Shown: positions 1 through 64,000 of the stretch, one piece after another
Layout of the letters: the number at the start of each line of letters is the position of its first letter
Position numbering within the stretch: position 1 is the stretch's first letter
Assembly: GCF_000003605.2 (NCBI RefSeq)
Contig: NW_003155356.1
Span: 1-64,000, forward strand
Origin: Saccoglossus kowalevskii
Taxonomy: Eukaryota; Hemichordata; Enteropneusta; Harrimaniidae
Reading direction: 5' to 3'
DNA length: 64,000 nucleotides
Program-made: the position numbers and the translations under genes
The notes under the pieces: generated by a model
What the model saw: the letters and a program-made list of their open reading frames with translations, nothing else
Databases searched by the model: none
Told to the model about the DNA's origin: nothing

Positions 1-254
1 CGTCCATGTCAGTGACAGTACAGCGTCTGTGATGTTGGCCGCATTAGCAGCAGCAGTGCTCGTTCCAGTGGCGTCAACCACAGATGACTGTGAAGAGGAA
101 TCGTCGTTTGCAAAGAACGCCTTAACGCCTGACACTTCAGCACCTCCATTTATTGAGTCTAAGTCTATGTCTATAGTCACATCTGTTGAAGTTCCAATGG
201 TGTATACTAAATCCGATGATGGACTTGTGATAGAGAAGGAATTAACAGCCACAT
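1..254 (-). CDS. Module exon, unit 0 (partial, cut by window edge)
   Basis: It covers residues 1 to about 85 of the module; the 3' part with the four cysteines is outside the window. It carries Ile35, Ser53 and Asn74, the same variant set as units 1 and 27. One A is missing near base 6 compared with unit 1, which would shift the frame close to the cut; this may be an edge or assembly error. Confidence 0.6.
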
Positions 255-3200
255 CTGCAAGAATTCAATATAACTTGAATTAATGAAAATTATGTGGGTT
301 GTATAATGTCGTTAATTAATTAAACCCTTTATGTAAAAGATGGTGCTTCACTAATTCATGATCTAAATTCCCATTTGATAACTTGAAGCTCAGTCCATGT
401 GGTACTGTATGAAATGAAACAGATTGAAATGAAAGTATGGCGTCTCATGCAAAAAGTTGTGTTCAAAATTCAGGAATATTATCACTCATTCAAATTCAAA
501 TTAAGACAATTGTGTCGCCCCAGTGAGTTATAAAACAATAAAAACAGGTTCCAATGATGGATATGTTGTTTTGATTTACGAAACTACGTGCGTTTCTTAC
601 AATTATCCAACTAAAACAGCTACAGAATGGCCGTGCACAAACAAACATATATTTGACAGTCTTTCTGCCTTCAACATTCTTAAATGAACAGCCACTTTTG
701 GGGAGTCCATTTGACTTGACCACTGATTCTTATCAAAAAGCAAAGGATCACACTCGAGTCTGAGAGGCTAGATTATTGGATTGCGGATAAGCACCTCAAC
801 TTTCAACTAAAAGGTTGCGAAAAAAGTGAATTGGTCAACAGTAAACGAATATTTTTGAGGGCGACGGGCATGGATTGGCTAATTGCAGGTGTGGCAAAAA
901 TGAAAAGTGAATGACCATGTTGCTCCCGAAGTTACTGGTTCCCAGCCACATATATTCATGATTCAGTGTGAAACTGTTACCTGTGCAAATGACAGTAGAA
1001 GCAGGATTTTCGGTAAATAACAGACATGCCACGTTGTTGCGTGTGTCGCTATCAGTATCTGTGACTTGAAGCTCAATACATAATCTGGTGTAAACCGTGC
1101 ATTGCTCTGCGTCCAATGTCAGTGACAGTACAGCGTCTGTGATGTTGGCCGCATTAGCAGCAGCAGTGCTCGTTCCAGTGGCGTCAACCACAGATGACTG
1201 TGAAGAGGAATCGTCGTTTGCAAAGAACGCCTTAACGCCTGACACTTCAGCACCTCCATTTATTGAGTCTAAGTCTATGTCTATAGTCACATCTGTTGAA
1301 GTTCCAATGGTGTATACTAAATCCGATGATGGACTTGTGATAGAGAAGGAATTAACAGCCACATCTGCAAGAATTCAATATAACTTGAATTAATGAAAAT
1401 TATGTGGGTTGTATAATGTCGTTAATTAATTAAACCCTTTATGTAAAAGATGGTGCTTCACTAATTCATGATCTAAATTCCCATTTGATAACTTGAAGCT
1501 CAGTCCATGTGGTACTGTATGAAATGAAACAGATTGAAATGAAAGTATGGCGTCTCATGCAAAAAGTTGTGTTCAAAATTCAGGAATATTATCACTCATT
1601 CAAATTCAAATTAAGACAATTGTGTCACCCCAGTGAGTTATAAAACAATAAAAACAGGTTCCAATGATGGATATGTTGTTTTGATTTAAGAAACTACGTG
1701 CGTTTCTTACAATTATCCAACTAAAACAGCTACAGAATGGCCGTGCACAAACAAACATATATTTGACAGTCTTTCTGCCTTCAACATTCTTAAATGAACA
1801 GCCACTTTTGGGGAGTCCATTTGACTTGACCACTGATTCTTATCAAAAAGCAAAGGATCACACTCGAGTCTGAGAGGCTAGATTATTGGATTGCGGATAA
1901 GCACCTCAACTTTCAACTAAAAGGTTGCGAAAAAAGTGAATTGGTCAACAGGAAACGAATATTTTTTGAGGGCGACGGGCATGGATTGGCTAATTGCAGG
2001 TGTGTCAAAAATGAAAAGTGAATGACCATGTTGCTCCCGGAGTTACTGGTTCCCAGCCACATATATTCATGATTCAGTGTGAAACTGTTACCTGTGCAAA
2101 TGACAGTAGAAGCAGGATTTTCGGTAAATAACAGACATGCCACGTTGTTGCGTGTGTCGCTATCAGTATCTGTGACTTGAAGCTCAATACATAATCTGGT
2201 GTAAACCGTGCATTGCTCTGCGTCCAATGTCAGTGACAGTACAGCGTCTGTGATGCTGGCCGCATTAGCAGCAGCAGTGCTCGTTCCAGTGGCGTCAACT
2301 ACAGATGACTGTGAAGAGGTATCGTCGTTTGCAAAGAACGCCTTAACGCCTGACACTTCAGCACCACCATTTACTGAGTCTAAGTCTATGTCTATAGTCA
2401 CATCCGTTGAAGTTCCAATGGTGTATACTAAATCCGATGATGGACTTGTGACGGAGAAGGAATTAACAGCCACATCTGCAAGAATTCAATATAACTTGAA
2501 TTAATAAAATTATGTGGGTGGTATAATGTCGTTAATTAATTAAACCCTTTATGTAAAAGATGGTGCTTCACCAATTCATGATCTAAATTCCCATTTGATA
2601 ACTTGAAGCTCAGTCCATGTGGTATTGTATGAAATGAAACAGATTGAAATGAAAGTATGGCGTCTCATGCAAAAAGTTGTGTTCAAAATTCAGGAATATT
2701 ATCACTCATTCAAATTCAAATTAAGACAATTGTGTCGCCCCAGTGAGTTATAAAACAATAAAAACAGGTTCCAATGATGGATATGTTGTTTTGATTTACA
2801 AACTACGTGCGTTTCTTACAATTATCCAACTAAAACAGCTACAGAATGGCCGTGCACAAACAAACATATATTTGACAGTCTTTCTGCCTTCAACATTCTT
2901 AAATGAACAGCCACTTTTGGGGAGTCCATTTGACTTGACCACTAATTCTTATCAAAAAGCAAAGGATCACACTCGAGTCTGAGAGGCTAGATTATTGGAT
3001 TGCGGATAAGCACCTCAACTTTCAACTAAAAGGTTGCGAAAAAAGTGAATTGGTCAACAGGAAACGAATATTTTTTGAGGGCGACGGGCATGGATTGGCT
3101 AATTGCAGGTGTGTCAAAAATGAAAAGTGAATGACCATGTTGCTCCCGAAGTTACTGGTTCCCAGCCACATATATTCATGATTCAGTGTGAAACTGTTAC

Positions 3201-18200: not shown

Positions 18201-21200
18201 AAAGTTGTGTTCAAAATTCAGGAATGTTATCCCTCATTCAAATTCAAATTAAGACAATTGTGTCGCTCCAGTCAGTTATAAAAAAAATAAAAACAGGTTC
18301 CAATGATGGACATGTTTTTTGATTTACGAAACTACGTGCGTTTCTTACAATTATCCAACTAAAACAGCTACAGAATGGCCGTGCACAAACAAACATATAT
18401 TTGACAGTCTTTCTGACTTCAACATTCTTAAATGAACAGCCACTTTTGGGGAGTCCATTTGACTTGACCACTGATTCTTATCAATAAGCAAAGGATCACA
18501 CTCGAGTCTGAGAGGCTAGATTATTGGATTGCGGATAAGCACCTCAACTTTCAACTAAAAGGCTGCGAAAAAAGTGAACTGGTCAACAGCAAACGAATAT
18601 TTTTGAGGCGACGGGCATGGATTGGCTAATTGCAGGTGTGGCAAAAATGAAAAGTGAATGATCATATTGCTCCCGGAGTTACTGGTTCCCAGCCACATAT
18701 ATTCATGATTCAGTGTGAAACTGTTACCTGTGCAAATGACAGTAGAAGCAGGATTTTCGGTAAATAACAGACATGCCACGTTGTTGCGTGTGTCGCTATC
18801 AGTATCTGTGACTTGAAGCTCAATACATAATCTGGTGTAAACCGTGCATTGCTGTGCGTCCAATGTCAGTGACAGTACAGCGTCTGTGATGCTGGCCGCA
18901 TTAGCAGCACCAGTGCTCGTTCCAGTGGCGTCAACCACAGATGACTGTGAAGAGGAATCGTCGTTTGCAAAGAACGCCTTAACGCCTGACACTTCAGCAC
19001 CACCATTTACTGAGTCTAAGACTATGTCTATAGTCACATCCGTTGAAGTTCCAATGGTGTATACTAAATCCGATGATGGACTTGTGATGGAGAAGGAATT
19101 AACAGCCACATCTGCAAGAATTCAATATAACTTGAATTAATAAAATTATGTGGATTGTATAATGTCGTTAATTAATTAAACCCTTTATGTAAAAGATGGT
19201 GCTTCACTAATTCATGATCTAAATTCCCATTTGATAACTTGAAGCTCAGTCCATGTGGTACTGTATGAAATGAAACAGATTGAAATGAAAGTATGGCGTC
19301 TCACGCAAAAAGTTGTGTTCAAAATTCAGGAATGTTGTCCCTCATTCAAATTCAAATTAAGACAATTGTGTCGCTCCAGTGAGTTATAAAAAAAAATAAA
19401 AACAGGTTCCAATGATGGATATGTTTTTTGATTTACGAAACTACGTGCGTTTCTTACAATTATCCAACTAAAACAGCTACAGAATGGCCGTGCACAAACA
19501 AACATATATTTGACAGTCTTTCTGACTTCAACATTCTTAAATGAACAGCCACTTTTGGGGAGTCCATTTGACTTGACCACTGATTCTTATCAATAAGCAA
19601 AGGATCACACTCGACTCTGAGAGGCTAGATTATTGGATTGCGGATAAACACCTCAACTTTCAACTAAAAGGCTGCAACAAAAGTGAACTGGTCAACAGCA
19701 AACGAATATTTTTGAGGCGACGGGCATGGATTGGCTAATTGCAGGTGTGGCAAAAATGAAAAGTGAATGACCATATTGCTCCCGGAGTTACTGGTTCCCA
19801 GCCACATATATTCATGATTCAGTGTGAAACTGTTACCTGTGCAAATGACAGTAGAAGCAGGATTTTCGGTAAATAACAGACATGCCACGTTGTTGCGTGT
19901 GTCACTATCAGTATCTGTGACTTGAAGCTCAATACATAATCTGGTGTAAACCGTGCATTGCTCTGCGTCCAATGTCAGTGACAGTACTGCGTCTGTGATG
20001 CTGGCCGCATTAGCAGCACCAGTGCTCGTTCCAGTGGCGTCAACCACAGATGACTGTGAAGAGGAATCGTCGTTTGCAAAGAACGCCTTAACGCCTGACA
20101 CTTCAGCACCACCATTTACTGAGTCTAAGACTATGTCTATAGTCACATCCGTTGAAGTTCCAATGGTGTATACTAAATCCGATGATGGACTTGTGATGGA
20201 GAAGGAATTAACAGCCACATCTGCAAGAATTCAATATAACTTGAATTAATAAAATTATGTGGATTGTATAATGTCGTTAATTAATTAAACCCTTTATGTC
20301 AATGATGGTGCTTCACTAATTCATGATCTAAATTCCCATTTGATAACTTGAAGCTCAGTCCATGTGGTACTGTATGAAATGAAACAGATTGAAATGAAAG
20401 TATGGCGTCTTACGCAAAAAGTTGTGTTCAAAATTCAGGAATGTTATCCCTCATTCAAATTCAAATTAAGACAATTGTGTCGCTCCAGTCAGTTATAAAA
20501 AAAATAAAAACAGGTTCCAATGATGGATATGTTTTTTGATTTACGAAACTACGTGCGTTTCTTACAATTATCCAACTAAAACAGCTACAGAATGGCCGTG
20601 CACAAACAAACATATATTTGACAGTCTTTCTGACTTCAACATTCTTAAATGAACAGCCACTTTTGGGGAGTCCATTTGACTTGACCACTGATTCTTATCA
20701 ATAAGCAAAGGATCACACTCGAGTCTGAGAGGCTAGATTATTGGATTGCGGATAAGCACCTCAACTTTCAACTAAAAGGCTGCGAAAAAAGTGAACTGGT
20801 CAACAGCAAACGAATATTTTTGAGGCGACGGGCATGGATTGGCTAATTGCAGGTGTGGCAAAAATGAAAAGTGAATGACCATATTGCTCCCGGAGTTACT
20901 GGTTCCCAGCCACATATATTCATGATTCAGTGTGAAACTGTTACCTGTGCAAATGACAGTAGAAGCAGGATTTTCGGTAAATAACAGACATGCCACGTTG
21001 TTGCGTGTGTCGCTATCAGTATCTGTGACTTGAAGCTCAATACATAATCTGGTGTAAACCGTGCATTGCTGTGCGTCCAATGTCAGTGACAGTACAGCGT
21101 CTGTGATGCTGGCCGCATTAGCAGCACCAGTGCTCGTTCCAGTGGCGTCAACCACAGATGACTGTGAAGAGGAATCGTCGTTTGCAAAGAACGCCTTAAC

Positions 21201-48200: not shown

Positions 48201-51200
48201 AATTGTGTCGCTCCAGTGAGTTATAAAACAATAAAAACAGGTTCCAATGATGGATATGTTTTTTTTATTTACGAAACTACGTGCGTTTCTTACAATTATC
48301 CAACTAAAACAGCTACAGAATGGCCGTGCACAAACAAACATATATTTGACAGTCTTTCTGCCTTCAACATTCTTAAATGAACAGACACTTTTGGGGAGTC
48401 CATTTGACTTGACCACTGATTCTTATCAATAAGCAAAGGATCACACTCGAGTCTGAGAGGCTAGATTATTGGATTGCGGATAAGCACCTCAACTTTCAAC
48501 TAAAAGGCTGCGAAAAAAGTGAATTGGTCAACAGCAAACGAATATTTTTGAGGGCGACGGGCATGGATTGGCTAATTGCAGGTGTGGCAAAAATGAAAAG
48601 TGAATGACCATGTTTCTCTCGGAGTTACTGGTTTCCAGCCACATATATTCATGATTCAGTGTGAAACTGTTACCTGTGCAAATGACAGTAGAAGCAGGAT
48701 TTTCGGTAAATAACAGACATGCCACGTTGTTGCGTGTGTCGCTATCAGTATCTGTGACTTGAAGCTCAATACATAATCTGGTGTAAACCGTGCATTGCTC
48801 TGCGTCCAATGTCAGTGACAGTACAGCGCCCGTGATGGTGGCCGCATTAGCAGCAGCAGTGCTCGTTCCAGTGCCGTCAATCACAGATGACTGTGAAGAG
48901 GTATCGTCGTTTGCAAAGAACGCCTTAACGCCTGACACTTCAGCACCACCATTTACTGAGTCTAAGTCTATGTCTATAGTCACATCCGTTGAAGTTCCAA
49001 TGGTGTATACTAAATCCGATGATGGACTTGTGATGGAGAAGGAATTAACAGCCACATCTGCAAGAATTCAATATAACTTGAATTAATAAAATTATGTGGG
49101 TTGTATAATGTCGTTAATTAATTAAACCCTTTATGTAAAAGATGGTGCTTCACTAATTCATGATCTAAATTCCAATTTGATAACTTGAAGCTCAGTCGAT
49201 GTGGTACTGTATGAAATGAAACAGATTGAAATGAAAGTATGGCGTCTCATGCAAAAAGTTGTGTTCAAAATTCATGAATATTATCACTCATTCAAATTCA
49301 AATTAAGACAATTGTGTCGCTCCAGTGAGTTATAAAAAAATAAAAACAGGTTCCAATGATGGACATGTTTTTTTGATTTACGAAACCACGTGCGTTTCTT
49401 ACAATTATCCAACTAAAACAGCTACAGAATGGCCGTGCACAAACAAACATATATTTGACAGTCTTTCTGCCTTCAACATTCTTAAATGAACAGCCACTTT
49501 TGGGGAGTCCATTTGACTTGACCACTGATTCTTATCAATAAGCAAAGGATCACACTCGAGTCTGAGAGGCTAGATTATTGGATTGCGGATAAGCAGCTCA
49601 ACTTTCATCTAAAAGGCTGCGAAAAAAGTGAATTGGTCAACAGCAAACGAATATTTTTGAGGGCGACGGGCATGGATTGGCTAATTGCAGGTGTGGCAAA
49701 AATGAAAAGTGAATGACCATGTTGCTCCCGAAGTTACTGGTTCCCAGCCACATATATTCATGATTCAGTGTGAAACTGTTACCTGTGCAAATGACAGTAG
49801 AAGCAGGATTTTCGGTAAATAACAGACATGCCACGTTGTTGCGTGTGTCGCTATCAGTATCTGTGACTTGAAGCTCAATACATAATCTGGTGTAAACCGT
49901 GCATTGCTCTGCGTCCAATGTCAGTGACAGTACAGCGTCTGTGATGCTGGCCGCATTAGCAGCAGCAGTGCTCGTTCCAGTGGCGTCAACTACAGATGAC
50001 TGTGAAGAGGTATCGTCGTTTGCAAAGAACGCCTTAACGCCTGACACTTCAGCACCACCATTTACTGAGTCTAAGTCTATGTCTATAGTCACATCCGTTG
50101 AAGTTCCAATGGTGTATACTAAATCCGATGATGGACTTGTGATGGAGAAGGAATTAACAGCCACATCTGCAAGAATTCAATATAACTTGAATTAATAAAA
50201 TTATGTGGGTTGTATAATGTCGTTAATTAATTAAACCCTTTATGTAAAAGATGGTGCTTCACGAATTCATGATCTAAATTCCCATTTGATAACTTGAAGC
50301 TCAGTCCATGTGGTACTGTATGAAATGAAACAGATTGAAATGAAAGTATGGCGTCTCATGCAAAAAGCTGTGTTCAAAATTCAGGAATATTATCACTCAT
50401 TCAAATTCAAATTAAGACAATTGTGTCGCCCCAGTGAGTTATAAAACAATAAAAACAGGTTCCAATGATGGATATGTTGTTTTGATTTACGAAACTACGT
50501 GCGTTTCTTACAATTATCCAACTAAAACAGCTACAGAATGGCCGTGCACAAACAAACATATATTTGACAGTCTTTCTGCCTTCAACATTCTTAAATGAAC
50601 AGCCACTTTTGGGGAGTCCATTTGACTTGACCACTGATTCTTATCAAAAAGCAAAGGATCACACTCGAGTCTGAGAGGCTAGATTATTGGATTGCGGATA
50701 AGCACCTCAACTTTCAACTAAAAGGTTGCGAAAAAAGTGAATTGGTCAACAGGAAACGAATATTTTTTGAGGGCGACGGGCATGGATTGGCTAATTGCAG
50801 GTGTGTCAAAAATGAAAAGTGAATGACCATGTTGCTCCCGGAGTTACTGGTTCCCAGCCACATATATTCATGATTCAGTGTGAAACTGTTACCTGTGCAA
50901 ATGACAGTAGAAGCAGGATGTTCGGTAAATAACAGACATGCCACGTTGTTGCGTGTGTCGCTATCAGTATCTGTGACTGAAGCTCAATACATAATTTGGT
51001 GTAAACCGTGCATTGCTTTGCGTCCAATGTCAGTGACAGTACAGCGTATGTGATGTTGGCCGCATTAGCAGCAGCAGTGCTCGTTCCAGTGGCGTCAACC
51101 ACAGATGACTGTGAAGAGGAATCGTCGTTTGCAAAGAACGCCTTAACGCCTGACACTTCAGCACCACCATTTACTGAGTCTAAGTCTATGTCTATATTCA

Positions 51201-54200
51201 CATCCGTTGAAGTTCCAATGGTGTATACTAAATCCGATGATGGACTTGTGATGGAGAAGGAATTAACAGCCACATCTGCAAGAATTCAATATAACTTGAA
51301 TTAATAAAATTATGTGGGTTGTATAATGTCGTTAATTAATTAAACCCTTTATGTAAAAGATGGTGCTTCACTAATTTATGATCTAAATTCCCATTTGATA
51401 ACTTGAAGCTCAGTCCATGTGGTACTGTATGAAATGAAACAGATTGAAATGAAAGTATGGCGTCTCATGCAAAAAGTTGTGTTCAAAATTCAGGAATATT
51501 ATCACTCATTCAAATTCAAATTAAGACAATTGTGTCGCCCCAGTGAGTTATAAAACAATAAAAACAGGTTCCAATGATGGATATGTTGTTTTGATTTACG
51601 AAACTACGTGCGTTTCTTACAATTATCCAACTAAAACAGCTACAGAATGGCCGTGCACAAACAAACATATATTTGACAGTCTTTCTGCCTTCAACATTAT
51701 TAAATGAACAGCCACTTTTGGGGAGTCCATTTGAGTTGACCACTGATTCTTATCAATAAGCAAAGGATCACACTCGAGTCTGAGAGGCTAGATTATTGGA
51801 TTGCGGATAAGCACCTCAACTTTCAACTAAAAGGCTGCGAAAAAAGTGAATTGGTCAACAGCAAACGAATATTTTTGAGGGCGACGGGCATGGATTGGCT
51901 AATTGCAGGTGTGGCAAAAATGAAAAGTGAATGACCATGTTGCTCCCGAATTTACTGGTTCCCAGCCACATATATTCATGATTCAGTGTGAAACTGTTAC
52001 CTGTGCAAATGACAGTAGAAGCAGGATTTTCGGTAAATAACAGACATGCCACGTTGTTGCGTGTGTCGCTATCAGTATCTGTGACTTGAAGCTCAATACA
52101 TAATCTGGTGTAAACCGTGCATTGCTCTGCGTCCAATGTCAGTGACAGTACAGCGTCTGTGATGCTGGCCGCATTAGCAGCAGCAGTGCTCGTTCCAGTG
52201 GCGTCAACCACAGATGACTGTGAAGAGGTATCGTCGTTTGCAAAGAACGCCTTAACGCCTGACACTTCAGCACCACCATTTACTGAGTCTAAGTCTATGT
52301 CTATAGTCACATCCGTTGAAGTTCCAATGGTGTATACTAAATCCGATGATGGACTTGTGATGGAGAAGGAATTAACAGCCACATCTGCAAGAATTCAAAA
52401 TAACTTGAATTAATAAAATTATGTGGGTGGTATAATGTCGTTAATTAATTAAACCCTTTATGTAAAAGATGGTGCTTCACTAATTCATGATCTAAATTCC
52501 CATTTGATAACTTGAAGCTCAGTCCATGTGGTATTGTATGAAATGAAACAGATTGAAATGAAAGTATGGCGTCTCATGCAAAAAGTTGTGTTCAAAATTC
52601 AGGAATATTATCACTCATTCAAATTCAAATTAAGACAATTGTGTCACCCCAGTGAGTTATAAAACAATAAAAACAGGTTCCAATGATGGATATGTTGTTT
52701 TGATTTACGAAACTACGTGCGTTTCTTACAATTATCCAACTAAAACAGCTACAGAATGGCCGTGCACAAACAAACATATATTTGACAGTCTTTCTGCCTT
52801 CAACATTCTTAAATGAACAGCCACTTTTGGGGAGTCCATTTGACTTGACCACTGATTCTTATCAAAAAGCAAAGGATCACACTCGAGTCTGAGAGGCTAG
52901 ATTATTGGATTGCGGATAAGCACCTCAACTTTCAACTAAAAGGTTGCGAAAAAAGTGAATTGGTCAACAGGAAACGAATATTTTTTGAGGGCGACGGGCA
53001 TGGATTGGCTAATTGCAGGTGTGTCAAAAATGAAAAGTGAATGACCATGTTGCTCCCGGAGTTACTGGTTCCCAGCCACATATATTCATGATTCAGTGTG
53101 AAACTGTTACCTGTGCAAATGACAGTAGAAGCAGGATTTTCGGTAAATAACAGACATGCCACGTTGTTGCGTGTGTCGCTATCAGTATCTGTGACTTGAA
53201 GCTCAATACATAATCTGGTGTAAACCGTGCATTGCTCTGCGTCCAATGTCAGTGACAGTACAGCGTCTGTGATGCTGGCCGCATTAGCAGCAGCAGTGCT
53301 CGTTCCAGTGGCGTCAACTACAGATGACTGTGAAGAGGTATCGTCGTTTGCAAAGAACGCCTTAACGCCTGACACTTCAGCACCACCATTTACTGAGTCT
53401 AAGTCTATGTCTATAGTCACATCCGTTGAAGTTCCAATGGTGTATACTAAATCCGATGATGGACTTGTGATGGAGAAGGAATTAACAGCCACATCTGCAA
53501 GAATTCAATATAACTTGAATTAATAAAATTATGTGGGTTGTATAATGTCGTTAATTAATTAAACCCTTTATGTAAAAGATGGTGCTTCACTAATTTATGA
53601 TCTAAATTCCCATTTGATAACTTGAAGCTCAGTCCATGTGGTACTGTATGAAATGAAACAGATTGAAATGAAAGTATGGCGTCTCATGCAAAAAGTTGTG
53701 TTCAAAATTCAGGAATATTATCACTCATTCAAATTCAAATTAAGACAATTGTGTCGCCCCAGTGAGTTATAAAACAATAAAAACAGGTTCCAATGATGGA
53801 TATGTTGTTTTGATTTACGAAACTACGTGCGTTTCTTACAATTATCCAACTAAAACAGCTACAGAATGGCCGTGCACAAACAAACATATATTTGACAGTC
53901 TTTCTGCATTCAACATTATTAAATGAACAGCCACTTTTGGGGAGTCCATTTGAGTTGACCACTGATTCTTATTAATAAGCAAAGGATCACACTCGAGTCT
54001 GAGAGGCTAGATTATTGGATTGCGGATAAGCACCTCAACTGTCAACTAAAAGGCTGCGAAAAAAGTGAATTGGTCAACAGCAAACGAATATTTTTGAGGG
54101 GCGACGGGCATGGATTGGCTAATTGCAGGTGTGGCAAAAATGAAAAGTGAATGACCATGTTGCTCCCGAATTTACTGGTTCCCAGCCACATATATTCATG

Positions 54201-57200: not shown

Positions 57201-60200
57201 CAAACATATATTTGACAGTCTTTCTGCCTTCAACATTCTTAAATGAACAGCCACTTTTGGGGAGTCCATTTGACTTGACCACTGATTCTTATCAATAAGC
57301 AAAGGATCACACTCGTGTCTGAGAGGCTAGATTATTGGATTGTGGATAAGCACCTCAACTTTCAACTAAAAGGCTGCGAAAAAAGTGAATTGGTCAACAG
57401 CAAACGAATATTTTTGAGGACGACGGGCATGGATTGGCTAATTGCAGGTGTGGCAAAAATGAAAAGTGAATGACCATGTTGCTCCCGGAGTTACTGGTTC
57501 CCAGCCACATATATTCATGATTCAGTGTGAAACTGTTACCTGTGCAAATGACAGTAGAAGCAGGATTTTCGGTAAATAACAGACATGCCACGTTGTTGCG
57601 TGTGTCGCTATCAGTATCTGTGACTTGAAGCTCAATACATAATCTGGTGTAAACCGTGCATTGCTCTGCGTCCAATGTCAGCGACAGTACTGCGTTTGTG
57701 ATGCTGGCCGCATTAGCAGCAGCAGTGCTCGTTCCAGTGGCGTCAACCACAGATGACTGTGAAGAGGAATCGTCGTTTGCAAAGAACGCCTTAACGCCTG
57801 ACACTTCAGCACCACCATTTACTGAGTCTAAGACTATGTCTATAGTCACATCCGTTGAAGTTCCAATGGTGTATACTAAATCCGATGATGGACTTGTGAT
57901 GGAGAAGGAATTAACAGCCACATCTGCAAGAATTCAATATAACTTGAATTAATAAAATTATGTGGGTTGTATAATGTCGTTAATTAATTAAACCCTTTAT
58001 GTAAAAGATGGTGCTTCACTAATTCATGATCTAAATTCCCATTTGATAACTTGAAGCTCAGTCGATGTGGTACTGTATGAAATGAAACAGATTGAAATGA
58101 AAGTATGGCGTCTCATGCAAAAAGTTGTGTTCACAATTAAGGAATATTATCACTCATTCAAATTCAAATTAAAACAATTGTGTCGCCCCAGTGAGTTATA
58201 AAACAATAAAAACAGGTTCCAATGATGGATATGTTGTTTTGATTTACGAAACTACGTGCGTTTCTTACAATTATCCAACTAAAACAGCTACAGAATGGCC
58301 GTGCACAAACAAACATACATTTGACAGTCTTTCTGCCTTCAACATTCTTAAATTAACAGCCACTTTTGGGGAGTCCATTTGACTTGACCACTGATTCTTA
58401 TCAATAAGCAAAGGATCACACTCGAGTCTGAGAGGCTAGATTATTGGATTGCGGATAAGCACCTCAACTTTCAACTAAAAGGCTGCGAAAAAAGTGAATT
58501 GGTCAACAGCAAACGAATATTTTTGAGGGCGACGGGCATGGATGGGCTAATTGCAGGTGTGGCAAAAATGAAAAGTGAATGACCATGTTGCTCCCGAAGT
58601 TACTGGTTCCCAGCCACATATATTCATGATTCAGTGTGAAACTGTTACCTGTGCAAATGACAGTAGAAGCAGGATTTTCGGTAAATAACAGACATGCCAC
58701 GTTGTTGCGTGTGTCGCTATCAGTATCTGTGACTTGAAGCTCAATACATAATCTGGTGTAAACCGTGCATTGCTCTGCGTCCAATGTCAGTGACAGTACA
58801 GCGTCTGTGATGCTGGCCGCATTAGCAGCAGCAGTGCTCGTTCCAGTGGCGTCAACCACAGATGACTGTGAAGAGGTATCGTCGTTTGCAAAGAACACTT
58901 TAACGCTGACACTTCAGCACCACCATTTACTGAGTCTAAGTCTATGTCTATAGTCACATCCGTTGAAGTTCCAATGGTGTATACTAAATCCGATGATGGA
59001 CTTGTGATGGAGAAGGAATTAACAGCCACATCTGCAAGAATTCAATATAACTTGAATTAATAAAATTAGGTGGGTTGTATAATGTCGTTAATTAATTAAA
59101 CCCTTTATGTAAAAGATGGTGCTTCACTAATTCATGATCTAAATTCCCATTTGATAACTTGAAGCTCAGTCCATGTGGTACTGTATGAAATGAAACAGAT
59201 TGAAATGAAAGTATGGCGTCTCATGCAAAAAGTTGTGTTCAAAATTCAGGAATATTATCACTCATTCAAATTCAAATTAAGACAATTGTGTCGCCCCAGT
59301 GAGTTATAAAACAATAAAAACAGGTTCCAATGATGGATATGTTGTTTTGATTTACGAAACTACGTGCGTTTCTTACAATTATCCAACTAAAACAGCTACA
59401 GAATGGCCGTGCACAAACAAACATATATTTGACAGTCTTTCTGCCTTCAACATTCTTAAATGAACAGCCACTTTTGGGGAGTCCATTTGACTTGACCACT
59501 GATTCTTATCAATAAGCAAAGGATCACACTCGAGTCTGAGAGGCTAGATTATTGGATTGCGGATAAGCACCTCAACTTTCAACTAAAAGGCTGCGAAAAA
59601 AGTGAATTGGTCAACAGCAAACGAATATTTTTGAGGGCGACGGGCATGGATTGGCTAATTGCAGGTGTGGCAAAAATGAAAAGTGAATGACCATGTTGCT
59701 CCCGAAGTTACTGGTTCCCAGCCACATATATTCATGATTCAGTGTGAAACTGTTACCTGTGCAAATGACAGTAGAAGCAGGATTTTCGGTAAATAACAGA
59801 CATGCCACGTTGTTGCGTGTGTCGCTATCAGTATCTGTGACTTGAAGCTCAATACATAATCTGGTGTAAACCGTGCATTGCTCTGCGTCCAATGTCAATG
59901 ACAGTACAGCGTCTGTGATGCTGGCCGCATTAGCAGCAGCAGTGCTCGTTCCAGTGGCGTCAACCACAGATGACTGTGAAGAGGTATCGTCGTTTGCAAA
60001 GAACGCCTTAACGCCTGACACTTCAGCACCACCATTTACTGAGTCTAAGTCTATGTCTATAGTCACATCCGTTGAAGTTCCAATGGTGTATACTAAATCC
60101 GATGATGGACTTGTGATGGAGAAGGAATTAACAGCCACATCTGCAAGAATTCAATATAACTTGAATTAATAAAATTATGTGGGTTGTATAATGTCGTTAA

Positions 60201-63200
60201 TTAATTAAACCCTTTATGTAAAAGATGGTGCTTCACTAATTCATGATCTAAATTCCCATTTGATAACTTGAAGCTCAGTCCATGTGGTATTGTATGAAAT
60301 GAAACAGATTGAAATGAAAGTATGGCGTCTCATGCAAAAAGTTGTGTTCAAAATTCAGGAATATTATCACTCATTCAAATTCAAATTAAGACAATTGTGT
60401 CGCCCCAGTGAGTTATAAAACAATAAAAACAGGTTCCAATGATGGATATGTTGTTTTGATTTACGAAACTACGTGCGTTTCTTACAATTATCCAACTAAA
60501 ACAGCTACAGAATGGCCGTGCACAAACAAACATATATTTGACAGTCTTTCTGCCTTCAACATTCTTAAATGAACAGCCACTTTTGGGGAGTCCATTTGAC
60601 TTGACCACTGATTCTTATCAATAAGCAAAGGATCACACTCAAGTCTGAGAGGCTAGATTAGTGGATTGCGGATAAGCATCTCAACTTTCAACGAAAAGGC
60701 TGCGAAAAAAGTGAATTGGTCAACAGCAAACGAATATTTTTGAGGGCGACGGGCATGGATTGGCTAATTGCAGGTGTGGCAAAAATGAAAAGTGAATGAC
60801 CATGTTGCTCCCGAGGTTACTGGTTCCCAGCCACATATATTCATGATTCAGTGTGAAACTGTTACCTGTGCAAATGACAGTAGAAGCAGGATTTTCGGTA
60901 AATAACAGACATGCCACGTTGTTGCGTGTGTCGCTATCAGTATCTGTGACTTGAAGCTCAATACATAATCTGGTGTAAACCGTGCATTGCTCTGCGTCCA
61001 ATGTCAGTGACAGTACAGCGTCTGTGATGCTGGCCGCATTAGCAGCAGCAGTGCTCGTTCCAGTGGCGTCAACCACAGATGACTGTGAAGAGGTATCGTC
61101 GTTTGCAAAGAACGCCTTAACGCCTGACACTTCAGCACCACCATTTACTGAGTCTAAGTCTATGTCTATAGTCACATCCGTTGAAGTTCCAATGGTGTAT
61201 ACTAAATCCGATGATGGACTTGTGATGGAGAAGGAATTAACAGCCACATCTGCAAGAATTCAATATAACTTGAATTAATAAAATTATGTGGGTTGTATAA
61301 TGTCGTTAATTAATTAAACCCTTTATGTAAAAGATGGTGCTTCACGAATTCATGATCTAAATTCCCATTTGATAACTTGAAGCTCAGTCCATGTGGTACT
61401 GTATGAAATGAAACAGATTGAAATGAAAGTATGGCGTCTCATGCAAAAAGCTGTGTTCAAAATTCAGGAATATTATCACTCATTCAAATTCAAATTAAGA
61501 CAATTGTGTCGCCCCAGTGAGTTATAAAACAATAAAAACAGGTTCCAATGATGGATATGTTGTTTTGATTTACGAAACTACGTGCGTTTCTTACAATTAT
61601 CCAACTAAAACAGCTACAGAATGGCCGTGCACAAACAAACATATATTTGACAGTCTTTCTGCCTTCAACATTCTTAAATGAACAGCCACTTTTGGGGAGT
61701 CCATTTGACTTGACCACTGATTCTTATCAATAAGCAAAGGATCACACTCGAGTCTGAGAGGCTAGATTATTGGATTGCGGATAAGCACCTCAACTTTCAA
61801 CTAAAAGGCTGCGAAAAAAGTGAATTGGTCAACAGCAAACGAATATTTTTGAGGGCGACGGGCATGGATTGGCTAATTGCACGTGTGGCATAAAATGAAA
61901 AAGTGAATGACCATGTTGCTCCCGGAGTTACTGGTTCCCAGCCACATATATTCATGATTCAGTGTGAAACTGTTACCTGTGCAAATGACAGTAGAAGCAG
62001 GATTTTCGGTAAACAACAGACATGCCACGTTGTTGCGTGTGTCGCTATCAGTATCTGTGGCTTGAAGCTCAATACATAATCTGGTGTAAACCGTGCATTC
62101 CTCTGCGTCCAATGTCAGTGACAGTACAGCGCCCGTGATGGTGGCCGCATTAGCAGCAGCAGTGCTCGTTCCAGTGGCGTCAACCACAGATGACTGTGAA
62201 GAGGAATCGTCGTTTGCAAAGAACGCCTTAACGCCTGACACTTCAGCACCACCATTTATTGAGTCTAAGTCTATGTCTATAGTCACATCCGTTGGAGTTC
62301 CAATGGTGTATACTAAATCCGACGATGGACTTGTGATGGAGAAGGAATTAACAGCCACATCTGCAAGAATTCAATATAACTTGAATTAAAAAAAAAGGGT
62401 TGTATAATGTCGTTAATTAATTAAACCCTTTATGTCAATGATGGTGCTTCACTAATTCATGATCTAAATTCCCATTTGATAACTTGAAGCTCAGTCGATG
62501 TGGTACTGTATGAAATGAAACAGATTGAAATGAAAGTATGGCGTCTCATGCAAAAAGTTGTGTTCAAAATTCAGGAATATTATCACTCATTCAAATTCAA
62601 ATTAAGACAATTGTGTCGCTCCAGTGAGTTATAAAAAAAATAAAAACAGGTTCCAATGATGGATATGTTTTTTGATTTACGAAACCATGTGCGTTTCTTA
62701 CAATTATCCAACTAAAACAGCTACAGAATGGCCGTGCACAAACAAACATATATTTGACAGTCTTTCTGCCTTCAACATTCTTAAATGAACAGCCACTTTT
62801 GGGGAGTCCATTTGACTTGACCACTGATTCTTACCAATAAGCAAAGGATCACACTCGAGTCTGAGAGGCTAGATTATTGGATTGCGGATAAGCACCTTAA
62901 CTTTCAACTAAAAGGCTGCGAAAAAAGTGAATTGGTCAACAGCAAACGAATATTTTTGAGGGCGACGGGCATAATTTGGCTAATTGCAGGTGTGGCAAAA
63001 ATGAAAAGTGAATGACAATGTTGCTCCCGGAGTTACTGGTTCCCAGCCACATATATTCATGATTCAGTGTGAAACTGTTACCTGTGCAAATGACAGTAGA
63101 AGCAGGATTTTCGGTAAATAACAGACATGCCACGTTGTTGCGTGTGTCGCTATCAGTATCTGTGGCTTGAAGCTCAATACATAATCTGGTGTAAACCGTG

Positions 63201-64000
63201 CATTGCTCTGCGTCCAATGTCAGTGACAGTACTGCGTTTGTGATGCTGGCCGCATTAGCAGCAGCAGTGCTCATTCCAGTGGCGTCAACCAGAGATGATT
63301 GTGAAGAGGAATCGTCGTTTGCAAAGAACGCCTTAACGCCTGACACTTCAGCACCACCATTTATTGAGTCTAAGACTATGTCTATAGTCACATCCGTTGG
63401 AGTTCCAATGGTGTATACTAAATCCGATGATGGACTTGTGATGGAGAAAGAATTAACAGCCACATCTGCAAGAATTCAATATAACTTGAATTAATAAAAT
63501 TATGTGGGTGGTATAATGTCGTTAATTAATTAAACCCTTTATGTAAAAGATGGTGCTTCACTAAATTCATGATCTAAATTCCCATTTGATAACTTGAAGC
63601 TCAGTCCATGTGGTATTGTATGAAATGAAACAGATTGAAATGAAAGTATGGCGTCTCATGCAAAAAGTTGTGTTCAAAATTCAGGAATATTATCACTCAT
63701 TCAAATTCAAATTAAGACAATTGTGTCGCCCCAGTGAGTTATAAAACAATAAAAACAGGTTCCAATGATGGATATGTTGTTTTGATTTACGAAACTACGT
63801 GCGTTTCTTACAATTATCCAACTAAAACAGCTACAGAATGGCCGTGCACAAACAAACATATATTTGACAGTCTTTCTGCCTTCAACATTCTTAAATGAAC
63901 AGCCACTTTTGGGGAGTCCATTTGACTTGACCACTGATTCTTATCAAAAAGCAAAGGATCACACTCGAGTCTGAGAGGCTAGATTATTGGATTGCGGATA
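1..64000 (-). CDS. Interior of a giant multi-exon gene: tandem 128-residue extracellular-type modules
   Basis: The gene is inferred by joining the 58 minus-strand exon copies listed below; transcription runs from high to low coordinates. Every exon lies between an acceptor ending in TGCAG and a donor GTAACA. Each starts with two bases (AT) and ends with one base (G) of a split codon, so consecutive exons join in frame through GAT (Asp). Consensus module, numbered from that Asp: strand-like segments at residues 2-10, 15-33, 41-49, 75-85 and 90-118; an Ala/Ser/Thr-rich stretch at 61-76; Cys at 89, 96, 114 and 127; Asn-Asn at 110-111. The net charge is about -15 per module. The lack of an ATG, the symmetric phase and the cysteines suggest a secreted or cell-surface repeat protein. 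No signal peptide, membrane segment, start or stop lies in the window. The family is not recognised; a CARDB-like or other Ig-like fold is a guess. The alternative is a satellite whose open frame is fortuitous. Confidence 0.68.
255..980 (-). other. Representative intron (one of 57 between exon copies, about 719-731 nt each)
   Basis: On the minus strand it starts GTAACAGTTTCACACTG and ends GAATTCTTGCAG. A pyrimidine-poor tail contains TTAAT about 30 nt before the acceptor, which could serve as a branch point. It holds a 12-nt palindrome (TTAATTAATTAA, 312-323). A 75-codon minus-strand open stretch at 496-723 lacks an ATG and is broken or shifted in several other units by changes in T and A runs, so I treat it as non-coding. 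All other gaps between listed exons have the same content, and nothing else was seen in any of them. Confidence 0.7.
312..323. repeat. 12-nt perfect palindrome TTAATTAATTAA, once per unit
   Basis: It lies in the intron about 58 nt from the exon acceptor edge and recurs in nearly every unit. In the unit at about 4,751 it reads TTAACTAATTAA, so it is not strictly kept. No function is inferred. Confidence 0.6.
981..1364 (-). CDS. Module exon, unit 1
   Basis: Intact, 128 codons. Differs from the array consensus at Ile35, Ser53 and Asn74; Asn74-Ile-Thr forms an N-glycosylation sequon. The GGA codon at Gly37 (CCTCC on the plus strand) is shared only with units 0 and 27. Confidence 0.7.
2092..2475 (-). 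CDS. Module exon, unit 2
   Basis: Intact. The only protein change is Ile9 to Val. The flank at 1,951-2,030 has the GGAAACG / TTTTTTGAG / GTGTCAAAAA variant set that marks one intron subfamily (type B). Confidence 0.7.
3201..3584 (-). CDS. Module exon, unit 3 (divergent)
   Basis: Intact but one of the more altered copies: Thr3, Arg21, Ile27, Asn51, Ser53 and Thr74. Its acceptor reads ATGCAG instead of TTGCAG, the only acceptor change noticed; the AG is kept. Confidence 0.68.
4310..4693 (-). CDS. Module exon, unit 4
   Basis: Intact with the consensus protein. The Leu80 codon is TTG rather than CTG (GTCAATGAC on the plus strand), a silent marker shared with units 20, 24, 37, 40, 42 and 54. Confidence 0.7.
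5420..5803 (-). CDS. Module exon, unit 5
   Basis: Intact with the consensus protein. It has a silent Ser14 codon change (TCA for TCG), shared with unit 21. The flanking intron has CCCGAATTTACTGG, also seen next to units 33, 37, 47 and 49. Confidence 0.7.
6531..6914 (-). CDS. Module exon, unit 6
   Basis: Intact; Asn66 and Ile91. Its acceptor-side intron has GGGTTGCATAATG, a rare variant shared only with unit 43, 37 units away. Confidence 0.7.
7640..8023 (-). CDS. Module exon, unit 7
   Basis: Intact; Asn66 and Ile91, as in units 6 and 9. The donor-side intron carries ATGATCACACACGAG, shared with unit 8. Confidence 0.7.
8749..9132 (-). CDS. Module exon, unit 8
   Basis: Intact; Gln56 to Pro, a change unique in the window. 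Confidence 0.7.
9857..10240 (-). CDS. Module exon, unit 9
   Basis: Intact; Asn66 and Ile91, the same pair as units 6 and 7. Confidence 0.7.
10966..11349 (-). CDS. Module exon, unit 10
   Basis: Intact; Lys5, Ser53, Thr73, Lys87 and Asp122. Thr73 plus Lys87 recur in unit 16. It lies in the more divergent stretch of the array. Confidence 0.7.
12077..12460 (-). CDS. Module exon, unit 11
   Basis: Intact; Asn25, Ser53, Ala76, Val85 and Asn104. Two changes create N-glycosylation sequons (Asn25-Val-Thr and Asn104-Asp-Ser). Confidence 0.7.
13188..13571 (-). CDS. Module exon, unit 12
   Basis: Intact; Pro23, Ser53, Lys88, Asn104 and His109. Asn104-Asp-Ser is a sequon shared with neighbouring unit 11. 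Confidence 0.7.
14296..14679 (-). CDS. Module exon, unit 13
   Basis: Intact; Val31, Ser53 and Gly68. Nearly identical to unit 18 over exon and donor-side intron, including CGACTCTGAG, GGATAAACACC and silent exon changes. Confidence 0.7.
15405..15788 (-). CDS. Module exon, unit 14
   Basis: Intact; Thr11, Val31 and Ser53. Confidence 0.7.
16512..16895 (-). CDS. Module exon, unit 15
   Basis: Intact; Ser53, Asn74 and Ala76. Ala76 removes the sequon that Asn74 makes in units 0, 1, 27 and 46. Confidence 0.7.
17619..18002 (-). CDS. Module exon, unit 16
   Basis: Intact; Ile35, Ser53, Thr73 and Lys87. The acceptor half matches the unit 0/1/27 type in Ile35 and ATAGAGAAGG, while the donor half matches unit 10, so it looks like a mosaic of two types. 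Confidence 0.7.
18728..19111 (-). CDS. Module exon, unit 17
   Basis: Intact; Val31, Ser53, Gly68 and Gln87. Shares GCTGTGCGTCC and the intron variant CCAGTCAGTTAT with unit 19. Confidence 0.7.
19837..20220 (-). CDS. Module exon, unit 18
   Basis: Intact; Val31, Ser53 and Gly68. Near copy of unit 13, five units away. Confidence 0.7.
20945..21329 (-). CDS. Module exon, unit 19 (+1 frameshift)
   Basis: 385 nt. An extra A at about 21,310-21,312 shifts the frame at residues 6-8; the rest of the copy reads as Val31, Ser53, Gly68 and Gln87, like unit 17. It could be a real lesion or an A-run consensus error. Confidence 0.6.
22056..22439 (-). CDS. Module exon, unit 20
   Basis: Intact with the consensus protein. 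The silent changes GAGTCCAAG and TTG at Leu80, plus CTAATGCATG in the adjoining intron, are shared with unit 40 exactly 20 units away. Confidence 0.7.
23165..23548 (-). CDS. Module exon, unit 21
   Basis: Intact; Glu119 to Asp only. Confidence 0.7.
24276..24659 (-). CDS. Module exon, unit 22
   Basis: Intact with the consensus protein. Val59 codon is GTA (AACTACAG on the plus strand), one of the two common silent alleles. Confidence 0.7.
25381..25764 (-). CDS. Module exon, unit 23
   Basis: Intact with the consensus protein. The adjoining intron at 25,088-25,212 has a cluster of single-base losses, which looks like poor local consensus. Confidence 0.7.
26490..26873 (-). CDS. Module exon, unit 24
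   Basis: Intact with the consensus protein. Acceptor-side intron GAATTCAAAATAAC is shared with units 23 and 47. Confidence 0.7.
27600..27983 (-). CDS. Module exon, unit 25
   Basis: Intact; Val125 to Ala, shared with units 26 and 36. Confidence 0.7.
28710..29093 (-). CDS. Module exon, unit 26
   Basis: Intact; Arg11 and Ala125. Otherwise nearly identical to unit 25, indicating a recent adjacent duplication. Confidence 0.7.
29819..30202 (-). CDS. Module exon, unit 27
   Basis: Intact; Ile35, Ser53 and Asn74 with an Asn-Ile-Thr sequon. The protein is identical to unit 1, 26 units away, and the flank to about 30,240 matches too. Confidence 0.7.
30930..31313 (-). CDS. Module exon, unit 28
   Basis: Intact with the consensus protein. 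It keeps the ATAGAGAAGG silent variant of unit 27 at its acceptor end but is otherwise of the common type. Confidence 0.7.
32040..32423 (-). CDS. Module exon, unit 29
   Basis: Intact; Asn120 to His (GGATGTTCGG on the plus strand), shared with units 46 and 50. Confidence 0.7.
33150..33533 (-). CDS. Module exon, unit 30
   Basis: Intact; Thr102 to Ala only. Donor-side intron variants TGTGGATAAG and GAGGACGACGG recur next to unit 52. Confidence 0.7.
34259..34642 (-). CDS. Module exon, unit 31
   Basis: Intact with the consensus protein. The flank AAAAATTGACTTGG is shared with units 27, 50 and 51. Confidence 0.7.
35368..35751 (-). CDS. Module exon, unit 32
   Basis: Intact with the consensus protein and the GTA allele at Val59. 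Confidence 0.7.
36477..36860 (-). CDS. Module exon, unit 33
   Basis: Intact with the consensus protein. The adjoining intron belongs to the subfamily with GAAACCACGTG and TTGGCCACTG (type A). Confidence 0.7.
37586..37966 (-). CDS. Module exon, unit 34 (several indels)
   Basis: 381 nt. One base is gained (T run at 37,707-37,709) and four are lost (near 37,760, 37,790, 37,820 and 37,832). The net change is -3, but the frame is wrong through most of the copy. Five indels within about 125 nt, in a unit otherwise matching its neighbours, suggests local sequencing or assembly error more than decay. Confidence 0.5.
38692..39075 (-). CDS. Module exon, unit 35
   Basis: Intact; Val125 to Ile. The intron beyond the donor has TTTCTCTCGG and GGTTTCCAGCC, shared with unit 44. 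Confidence 0.7.
39802..40183 (-). CDS. Module exon, unit 36 (several indels)
   Basis: 382 nt. One base is lost near 39,974, one T gained near 39,993, and two lost near 40,051-40,058. Ala125 as in units 25-26. The same CGCATAGC loss occurs in unit 34 two units away, so that indel may be a real shared allele or a systematic error. Confidence 0.5.
40909..41293 (-). CDS. Module exon, unit 37 (+1 frameshift)
   Basis: 385 nt. An extra G at 41,075-41,077 (CTGGGCCG) shifts the frame at residues 72-74, ahead of all four cysteines. Otherwise consensus. Confidence 0.55.
42019..42402 (-). CDS. Module exon, unit 38
   Basis: Intact; Thr83 to Lys only. Confidence 0.7.
43128..43511 (-). CDS. Module exon, unit 39
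   Basis: Intact; Ser66 to Ile. Donor-side intron variants TAGTGGATTGCGG and AAGCATCTC recur beside unit 55, 16 units away. Confidence 0.7.
44237..44620 (-). CDS. Module exon, unit 40
   Basis: Intact; Ser66 to Arg. Carries the GAGTCCAAG and Leu80 TTG alleles of unit 20. Confidence 0.7.
45346..45729 (-). CDS. Module exon, unit 41
   Basis: Intact; Ser19 and Met65. Confidence 0.7.
46455..46838 (-). CDS. Module exon, unit 42
   Basis: Intact; Ser58 to Phe only; Leu80 TTG allele. Confidence 0.7.
47565..47948 (-). CDS. Module exon, unit 43
   Basis: Intact; Asn66 only. It shares the rare GGGTTGCATAATG flank with unit 6. Confidence 0.7.
48674..49057 (-). CDS. Module exon, unit 44
   Basis: Intact; Ile60, Gly62, Thr74 and Gly77. 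Thr74 plus Gly77 recur in unit 56, and the flank beyond its donor matches unit 35. Confidence 0.7.
49783..50166 (-). CDS. Module exon, unit 45
   Basis: Intact with the consensus protein. The intron on its acceptor side has CACGAATTC and AAAAGCTGTG, shared with unit 55. Confidence 0.7.
50893..51275 (-). CDS. Module exon, unit 46 (-1 frameshift, mosaic)
   Basis: 383 nt. One T is lost near 50,978 (GACTGAAG for GACTTGAAG), shifting the frame at about residue 100 and so losing Cys114 and Cys127 in frame. The acceptor half carries Asn27, Ser53, Asn74, Tyr77, Lys87 and Lys94; the donor end carries His120 of the unit 29/50 type. The indel sits between these halves. Confidence 0.55.
52001..52384 (-). 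CDS. Module exon, unit 47
   Basis: Intact with the consensus protein. The donor-side intron has CATTATTAAATG and TTTGAGTTGACC, shared with unit 49. Confidence 0.7.
53111..53494 (-). CDS. Module exon, unit 48
   Basis: Intact with the consensus protein; the donor side is of type B, between the two related units 47 and 49. Confidence 0.7.
54221..54604 (-). CDS. Module exon, unit 49
   Basis: Intact with the consensus protein. Matches unit 47 in its donor-side intron, with one extra G (GAGGGGCGACGG). Confidence 0.7.
55330..55713 (-). CDS. Module exon, unit 50
   Basis: Intact; Asn120 to His. Confidence 0.7.
56431..56814 (-). CDS. Module exon, unit 51
   Basis: Intact with the consensus protein. 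Its donor-side intron has a run of single-base losses at 55,921-56,030, which explains the short 1,101-bp spacing to unit 50. Confidence 0.7.
57540..57923 (-). CDS. Module exon, unit 52
   Basis: Intact; Val31, Ser53 and Asn77. An island of the divergent type inside the homogeneous region; Asn77 and Val31 recur in unit 57. Confidence 0.7.
58649..59031 (-). CDS. Module exon, unit 53 (-1 frameshift)
   Basis: 383 nt. One C is lost near 58,906 (AACGCTGAC for AACGCCTGAC), shifting the frame at about residues 42-44. Otherwise close to consensus. Confidence 0.55.
59757..60140 (-). CDS. Module exon, unit 54
   Basis: Intact with the consensus protein; Leu80 TTG allele. Confidence 0.7.
60866..61249 (-). 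CDS. Module exon, unit 55
   Basis: Intact with the consensus protein. Left flank matches unit 39, right flank matches unit 45. Confidence 0.7.
61977..62360 (-). CDS. Module exon, unit 56 (divergent)
   Basis: Intact; Pro23, Ile35, Ser53, Thr74, Gly77, Glu88 and Ala101. The acceptor-side intron has an altered A run at 62,389-62,396 that removes the usual TTATGTGG, so its branch-point region differs from the other copies. Confidence 0.68.
63082..63465 (-). CDS. Module exon, unit 57 (first in transcription order)
   Basis: Intact and the most altered uninterrupted copy: Pro23, Val31, Ile35, Ser53, Leu59, Met65, Asn77 and Ala101. Pro23 and Ala101 are shared with unit 56. All four cysteines are kept. 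Confidence 0.7.
63466..64000 (-). other. Partial intron at the right edge
   Basis: Same intron sequence as elsewhere, cut by the window; it would end at the acceptor of unit 57. It continues the array without change of character, so another exon copy is expected about 190 bases beyond the edge. Nothing else seen. Confidence 0.7.

Follow-up and report, generated by a model that had tools for sequence, protein, structure and literature searches.

The unit of the KIV-2 repeat in the LPA gene consists of exons with their introns, and its copies are near-identical. In the abalone egg-coat protein VERL, a long array of extracellular repeats evolves in concert; it has about 22 repeats and no introns between them. 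KIV-2 is described as a protein-coding VNTR (PMC11462820), and its share of the coding sequence is given as up to 70% (PMC11201333); up to 40 copies are described. For piccolo b of teleosts, the amplification of a single in-frame zinc-finger exon is reported, with unequal crossover as the proposed cause and with 8–16 copies that are mostly diverged in zebrafish (PMC3484663). The gene-bearing tandem repeats reported for human include NBPF (about 1.5 kb) and DAZ (2.4 kb), the latter in arrays of 6 and 9 (PMC2588610).

The locus analyzed here is an acorn-worm array. The mitochondrial contig of its genome (17,037 bases) points to Saccoglossus, with the species less certain: COX1 is on the strand opposite to most of the other genes, ND2 precedes ND1, nd5 adjoins cob, ATA occurs at COX1 positions that hold Ile in other animals, and the 50 AAA codons of nine frames fit Lys wherever this could be judged. 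An inverted COX1, a transposed ND1 or ND2, AUA = Ile and AAA = Lys are reported for Saccoglossus kowalevskii (PMC3121625); adjacency of nd5 and cob is reported for two hemichordates and Xenoturbella, and AAA = Lys for Saccoglossus (PMC2697986). The window, the whole stretch of 64,000 bases that was examined, corresponds to bases 1–64000 of contig NW_003155356.1 and represents the interior of this array. If the gene reading presented below holds, the array is most likely a protein-coding exon–intron VNTR like KIV-2; however, each 1.1-kb unit holds a single exon, the copies number at least 107, the module is unrelated, and the array belongs to another phylum. As in piccolo b, a single in-frame exon has been amplified, although the 8–16 copies of that gene stand against 107 near-identical ones here. 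NBPF and DAZ are similar as gene-bearing tandem repeats but differ in their domains, and, unlike in VERL, each repeat of the acorn-worm array is its own exon with its own intron. Among the papers listed by our literature search, none reported the array or its module, which is no proof of absence. If transcribed, this would be a coding exon array with more copies than KIV-2 (up to 40) or piccolo b (up to 16), built on a module that has no Pfam match. Such a gene would provide a test of how the spliceosome orders ~100 near-identical introns and of how purifying selection affects a single copy out of a hundred, and it would raise the question of what an acidic protein of megadalton size does for the acorn worm. 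Gene sets may lack such genes where assemblies break inside them, as happened here.

Extent and homogeneity of the array

The whole contig was read (119,905 bases, no N) and proved to be a head-to-tail array over its entire length, with 108 exon starts spaced 1,101–1,117 bases apart (unit ~1,109 bases). The series of array exons has no interruption and keeps to the minus strand, and both contig ends fall within exons. The initial annotation had proposed that the array fills the window and is larger than it. Both proposals agree with the contig: exon–intron units occupy the window uninterruptedly, on the minus strand throughout, and run on to the contig end, giving 107 complete exons, 97 of which are 384 nt long and open and 10 of which are not. 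The same annotation had counted 57 complete 384-nt open copies in the window; the number of complete copies was correct, but only 51 of them have an open frame of 384 nt, and six carry 1-nt indels. The principal features are as follows.

1–64000, minus strand: interior of the tandem array, unit ~1,109 bases (384-nt exon and ~725-nt intron), from unit spacing
1–254, minus strand: partial exon truncated at the contig end, from the sequence and the genome protein search
981–1364, minus strand: first complete exon of the window, taken as representative, encoding a 128-residue module if the intron-split Asp codon is counted, from the sequence
1365–2091, minus strand: representative intron, donor GT at 2090–2091 and acceptor AG at 1365–1366, from the sequence, with both sites constant across units
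63082–63465, minus strand: final complete exon of the window, from exon coordinates

Tandem Repeats Finder returned no row for the array because the 1,109-base unit exceeds the longest period that it handles (500).

Head-to-tail near-identical units, each with an exon and an intron, correspond to an exon–intron VNTR, and a long homogeneous tandem array corresponds equally to satellite DNA. The locus might therefore be a satellite that grew from the exon and intron of a coding gene and lost translation, its exon signal being a leftover or an effect of local mutation. We consider this origin unlikely, though it deserves serious weight. It is favored by the position of both contig ends within the array: the search of the flanks for a signal peptide or for a first or last exon, which the initial annotation had suggested, met with array at both ends of the contig and recovered no flanking part of a gene. 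The substitution and indel patterns described below also bear on it.

For the comparison of units, 112 anchor matches yielded 103 aligned units of 1050–1160 bases, units of other lengths and doubled anchors being left out. The mean pairwise difference among them was 2.0% (1.3% in the exon and 2.3% in the intron). Adjacent units differed by 1.78%, those 10 apart by 2.07%, those 20 apart by 1.86%, and those 50 apart by 1.89%; thus, neighbors were barely more alike than distant units, and there was no steady trend with distance. The differences are consistent with exchange across the whole array and little local structure, a mechanism that we infer from them; that neighbors are so slightly favored nevertheless counts against the reading as one large gene given below. 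The contig ends inside the array, together with patches of 1-nt indels, could also suggest that the number or order of units was assembled wrongly, for example, by stringing together two haplotypes or a shorter array. Such an artifact is highly improbable. Over the consensus columns, every one of the 103 units differed from every other, which a contig made by simply repeating one stretch would not show, and an incorrect copy number would leave the array itself standing.

Exon anatomy and related modules in the genome

The exon has phase 1-1: its first two bases are the end of a codon and its last base is the start of another, and the junction codon (G, then AT; Asp) is split by the intron. The splice-like sites between which the initial annotation had placed the blocks were recovered, next to symmetric phase-1 ends, in all 103 aligned units: the donor is always GTAACA, and the acceptor always ends in AG (TTGCAG in 100 units, ATGCAG in 3). 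When exons were instead cut by pattern, each splice site was in place in 106 of 107, the remaining exon being shifted by at least one base. The predicted splice junction between units joins ACAG to ATGTGGCT.

The consensus module comprises 128 residues, including the junction Asp, with four Cys, no Met and no Trp; its pI is 4.05 and its charge at pH 7 is ~-15. An example peptide is LCIELQVTDTDSDTR. The possibility that each unit is a standalone gene was rejected. The module has no Met, which makes a single unit unlikely to be its own gene, and the longest other stop-to-stop frame in the unit, on the opposite strand and spanning the exon, has only 99 codons. In the Pfam search the array module remained below the gathering cut-off of every family, searches of PDB sequences gave weak matches only (best E 0.77 and 0.16), and Rfam showed no match up to E = 2 on window positions 1–2600.

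On balance, we consider it somewhat more likely than not that the window lies inside a single very large acorn-worm gene for an acidic repeat protein, homogenized by unequal exchange. Its units would plausibly be joined into one transcript and one protein, judging from the sequence. At 384 nt and phase 1-1, the frame is kept when copies are added; any copy number could thus splice in frame, and unequal crossing-over would be able to expand or shrink the array without breaking the protein. Unequal exchange together with gene conversion would maintain the similarity among exons and among introns. We would expect a thread-like extracellular protein with at least ~13,700 residues and a mass of about 1.4 MDa as the product (the mass computed for 108 module copies is about 1.42 MDa). 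It is predicted to be strongly acidic, with about -15 charges per module, and would perhaps occur in secreted mucus or matrix. That a single gene with at least 107 near-identical tandem exons encodes one acidic thread of ~13,700 or more residues, varying in length by unequal exchange, is a tentative proposal in which our confidence falls slightly short of even. If true, the array would be among the largest homogeneous exon arrays to our knowledge.

A genome-wide search (572 Mb, 4,830 contigs) with the array module, in which all 127 candidates were scored, placed 115 of 119 protein matches on the array contig. The remaining four were located on four other contigs, with 28–36% identity and E values from 2.5e-4 to 0.008. 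A diverged module used as a query in turn found the array back (best E 8.4e-6), as well as 14 shorter modules outside it, on C844 (the query itself), C4196, C2472, C447, C2884, C1146, and C4665. With a longer module as the query, 21 places on eight contigs were obtained. All but one of the 14 shorter modules were situated within ~2.5 kb of a longer module, in constant order.

Inspection of loci L041–L044 showed that five of seven module starts had an acceptor AG followed by AT, which is the array phase, the other two start motifs falling inside an exon. Of seven module ends, six had a GT donor in phase 1; the remaining one ran into a stop codon and is perhaps a last exon. Modules of the same phase were present at three other loci. 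A Pfam search with four paralogous modules gave nothing above the cut-off. Through the reciprocal match and the shared exon phase, the array belongs to a family of C-x6-C modules with phase-1 exons. Because its relatives match in both directions and share the exon phase, the exon of the array most likely originated from a genuine coding exon, and from the sequences compared the array is most likely an exception within a family of module pairs.

The relatives also bear on whether the units are used as alternatives, with mutually exclusive or variable splicing yielding proteins of few modules. An exon with symmetric phase 1-1 can be freely skipped, and, with 13 of the 14 shorter modules elsewhere adjoining one longer module, the relatives seem to hold few. 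However, the exons of the array are nearly identical, 37 of the 97 open ones encoding the same 127 residues, so that using one rather than another would bring hardly any diversity; we therefore regard such use as improbable.

Several further observations were made in the genome. Paired extracellular-looking modules, one longer and one shorter, were found on C4196, C2884, C2472, C447, C1146, and C844, with clusters on C4196 and C2884. Near a module pair, an open frame on the opposite strand (L043:814–1164) gave a weak match to TIR_2 (E 5.4e-4, below the cut-off). A DNA search, with three of six candidates scored, gave two short matches of 78–80% outside the array contig; these resemble the array intron (L003:1501–1560, 60 bases, 80%; L004:1501–1578, 78 bases, 78%) and may be fragments of a dispersed repeat.

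Substitutions in exon and intron

Distinct substitutions were counted among the 103 aligned units, and the expectation for the exon was derived from the mutation spectrum of the intron. In the true frame, 62 nonsynonymous substitutions were observed against 106.9 expected, 33 synonymous against 40.2, and no stops against 5.4. The corresponding values were 63 against 93.2, 22 against 41.6, and 5 against 8.9 in frame +1, and 70 against 100.8, 19 against 32.6, and 5 against 10.2 in frame +2. Thus, synonymous changes were nearly spared and stops were absent in the true frame only. As a control, twelve overlapping placements in the intron (four starts in three frames) had 3–12 stops, and their nonsynonymous ratios ranged from 0.81 to 1.09, compared with 0.58 in the exon. 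The nearest of them, placement 602, had 86 nonsynonymous substitutions against 106.7 expected, 31 synonymous against 32.2, and 3 stops against 7.5. The exon contained 95 distinct variants, and every 381-nt window of the intron contained 118–151. Poisson tests with CpG context included, which treat distinct variants as independent although this independence may not hold, gave p = 2.6e-6 for nonsynonymous changes, 0.004 for stops, and 0.10 for synonymous changes. No substitution was observed in Cys codons among the aligned units, where ~3 were expected (p about 0.05).

With respect to satellite DNA, the evidence from substitutions is divided. An omega of ~0.7 calculated from distinct variants and a p value of 0.063 when the nonsynonymous share was tested directly are compatible with lost translation. 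However, an exon free of constraint would be expected to be as variable as the intron and to acquire stops, whereas none of the 5.4 expected was seen, nonsynonymous changes were depleted, and the near-sparing of synonymous changes was peculiar to the true frame. The reading of the 384-nt block as an exon is well supported because the symmetric phase-1 ends, the constant splice sites, the relatives of the same phase and the substitution pattern in the true frame all point to it.

A stretch of the intron, unit positions 673–768, was as poor in substitutions as much of the exon is and showed no Rfam match.

Indels in the aligned units

As assembled, 10 of the 107 exons on the contig are broken by 1-nt indels. 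Six of them lie in the window, where the indels throw the exon out of frame, in whole or in part:

20945–21329, minus strand: 385-nt exon with the frame broken, from exon coordinates
37586–37966, minus strand: 381-nt exon, read as that of unit 77, with five clustered 1-nt indels, from the alignment
39802–40183, minus strand: 382-nt exon, read as that of unit 75, with four clustered 1-nt indels, from the alignment
40909–41293, minus strand: 385-nt exon with the frame broken, from exon coordinates
50893–51275, minus strand: 383-nt exon with its last part frame-shifted, from exon coordinates
58649–59031, minus strand: 383-nt exon with the frame broken, from exon coordinates

In the 103 aligned units, 20 indel events were counted in the exon and 90 in the intron. 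The excess in the intron arises because nine of its indels are common to several units, up to 24, whereas the three shared exon indels reach two units each. When distinct indels were counted per base, the two regions were equal (17 in 384 nt of exon and 32 in 725 nt of intron; p = 1.0). This equal density, as expected of a neutral unit or of assembly error, lowered our confidence in a coding gene and raised the standing of the satellite, as a tenth part of exons being broken also does. The nature of the exon indels, however, argues against a satellite. All 17 distinct ones are 1 nt in size, whereas of the 32 intron indels only 24 are (p = 0.04), and the 20 events are confined to nine of the 103 units, 16 of them to five units. 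A cluster of five 1-nt deletions occurs also in the intron of unit 88, and consensus errors would give such patches. We read the indel patches as leftover errors of the long-read consensus, although they may be real lesions, which would weaken the coding case. None of the 103 units combined an indel in the exon with a private one in the intron, for which we have no good explanation. The clusters of 1-nt indels in units 75 and 77, two of whose indels are common to both units, are restricted to the exon and may stem either from errors left in the consensus or from a lesion that the units share.
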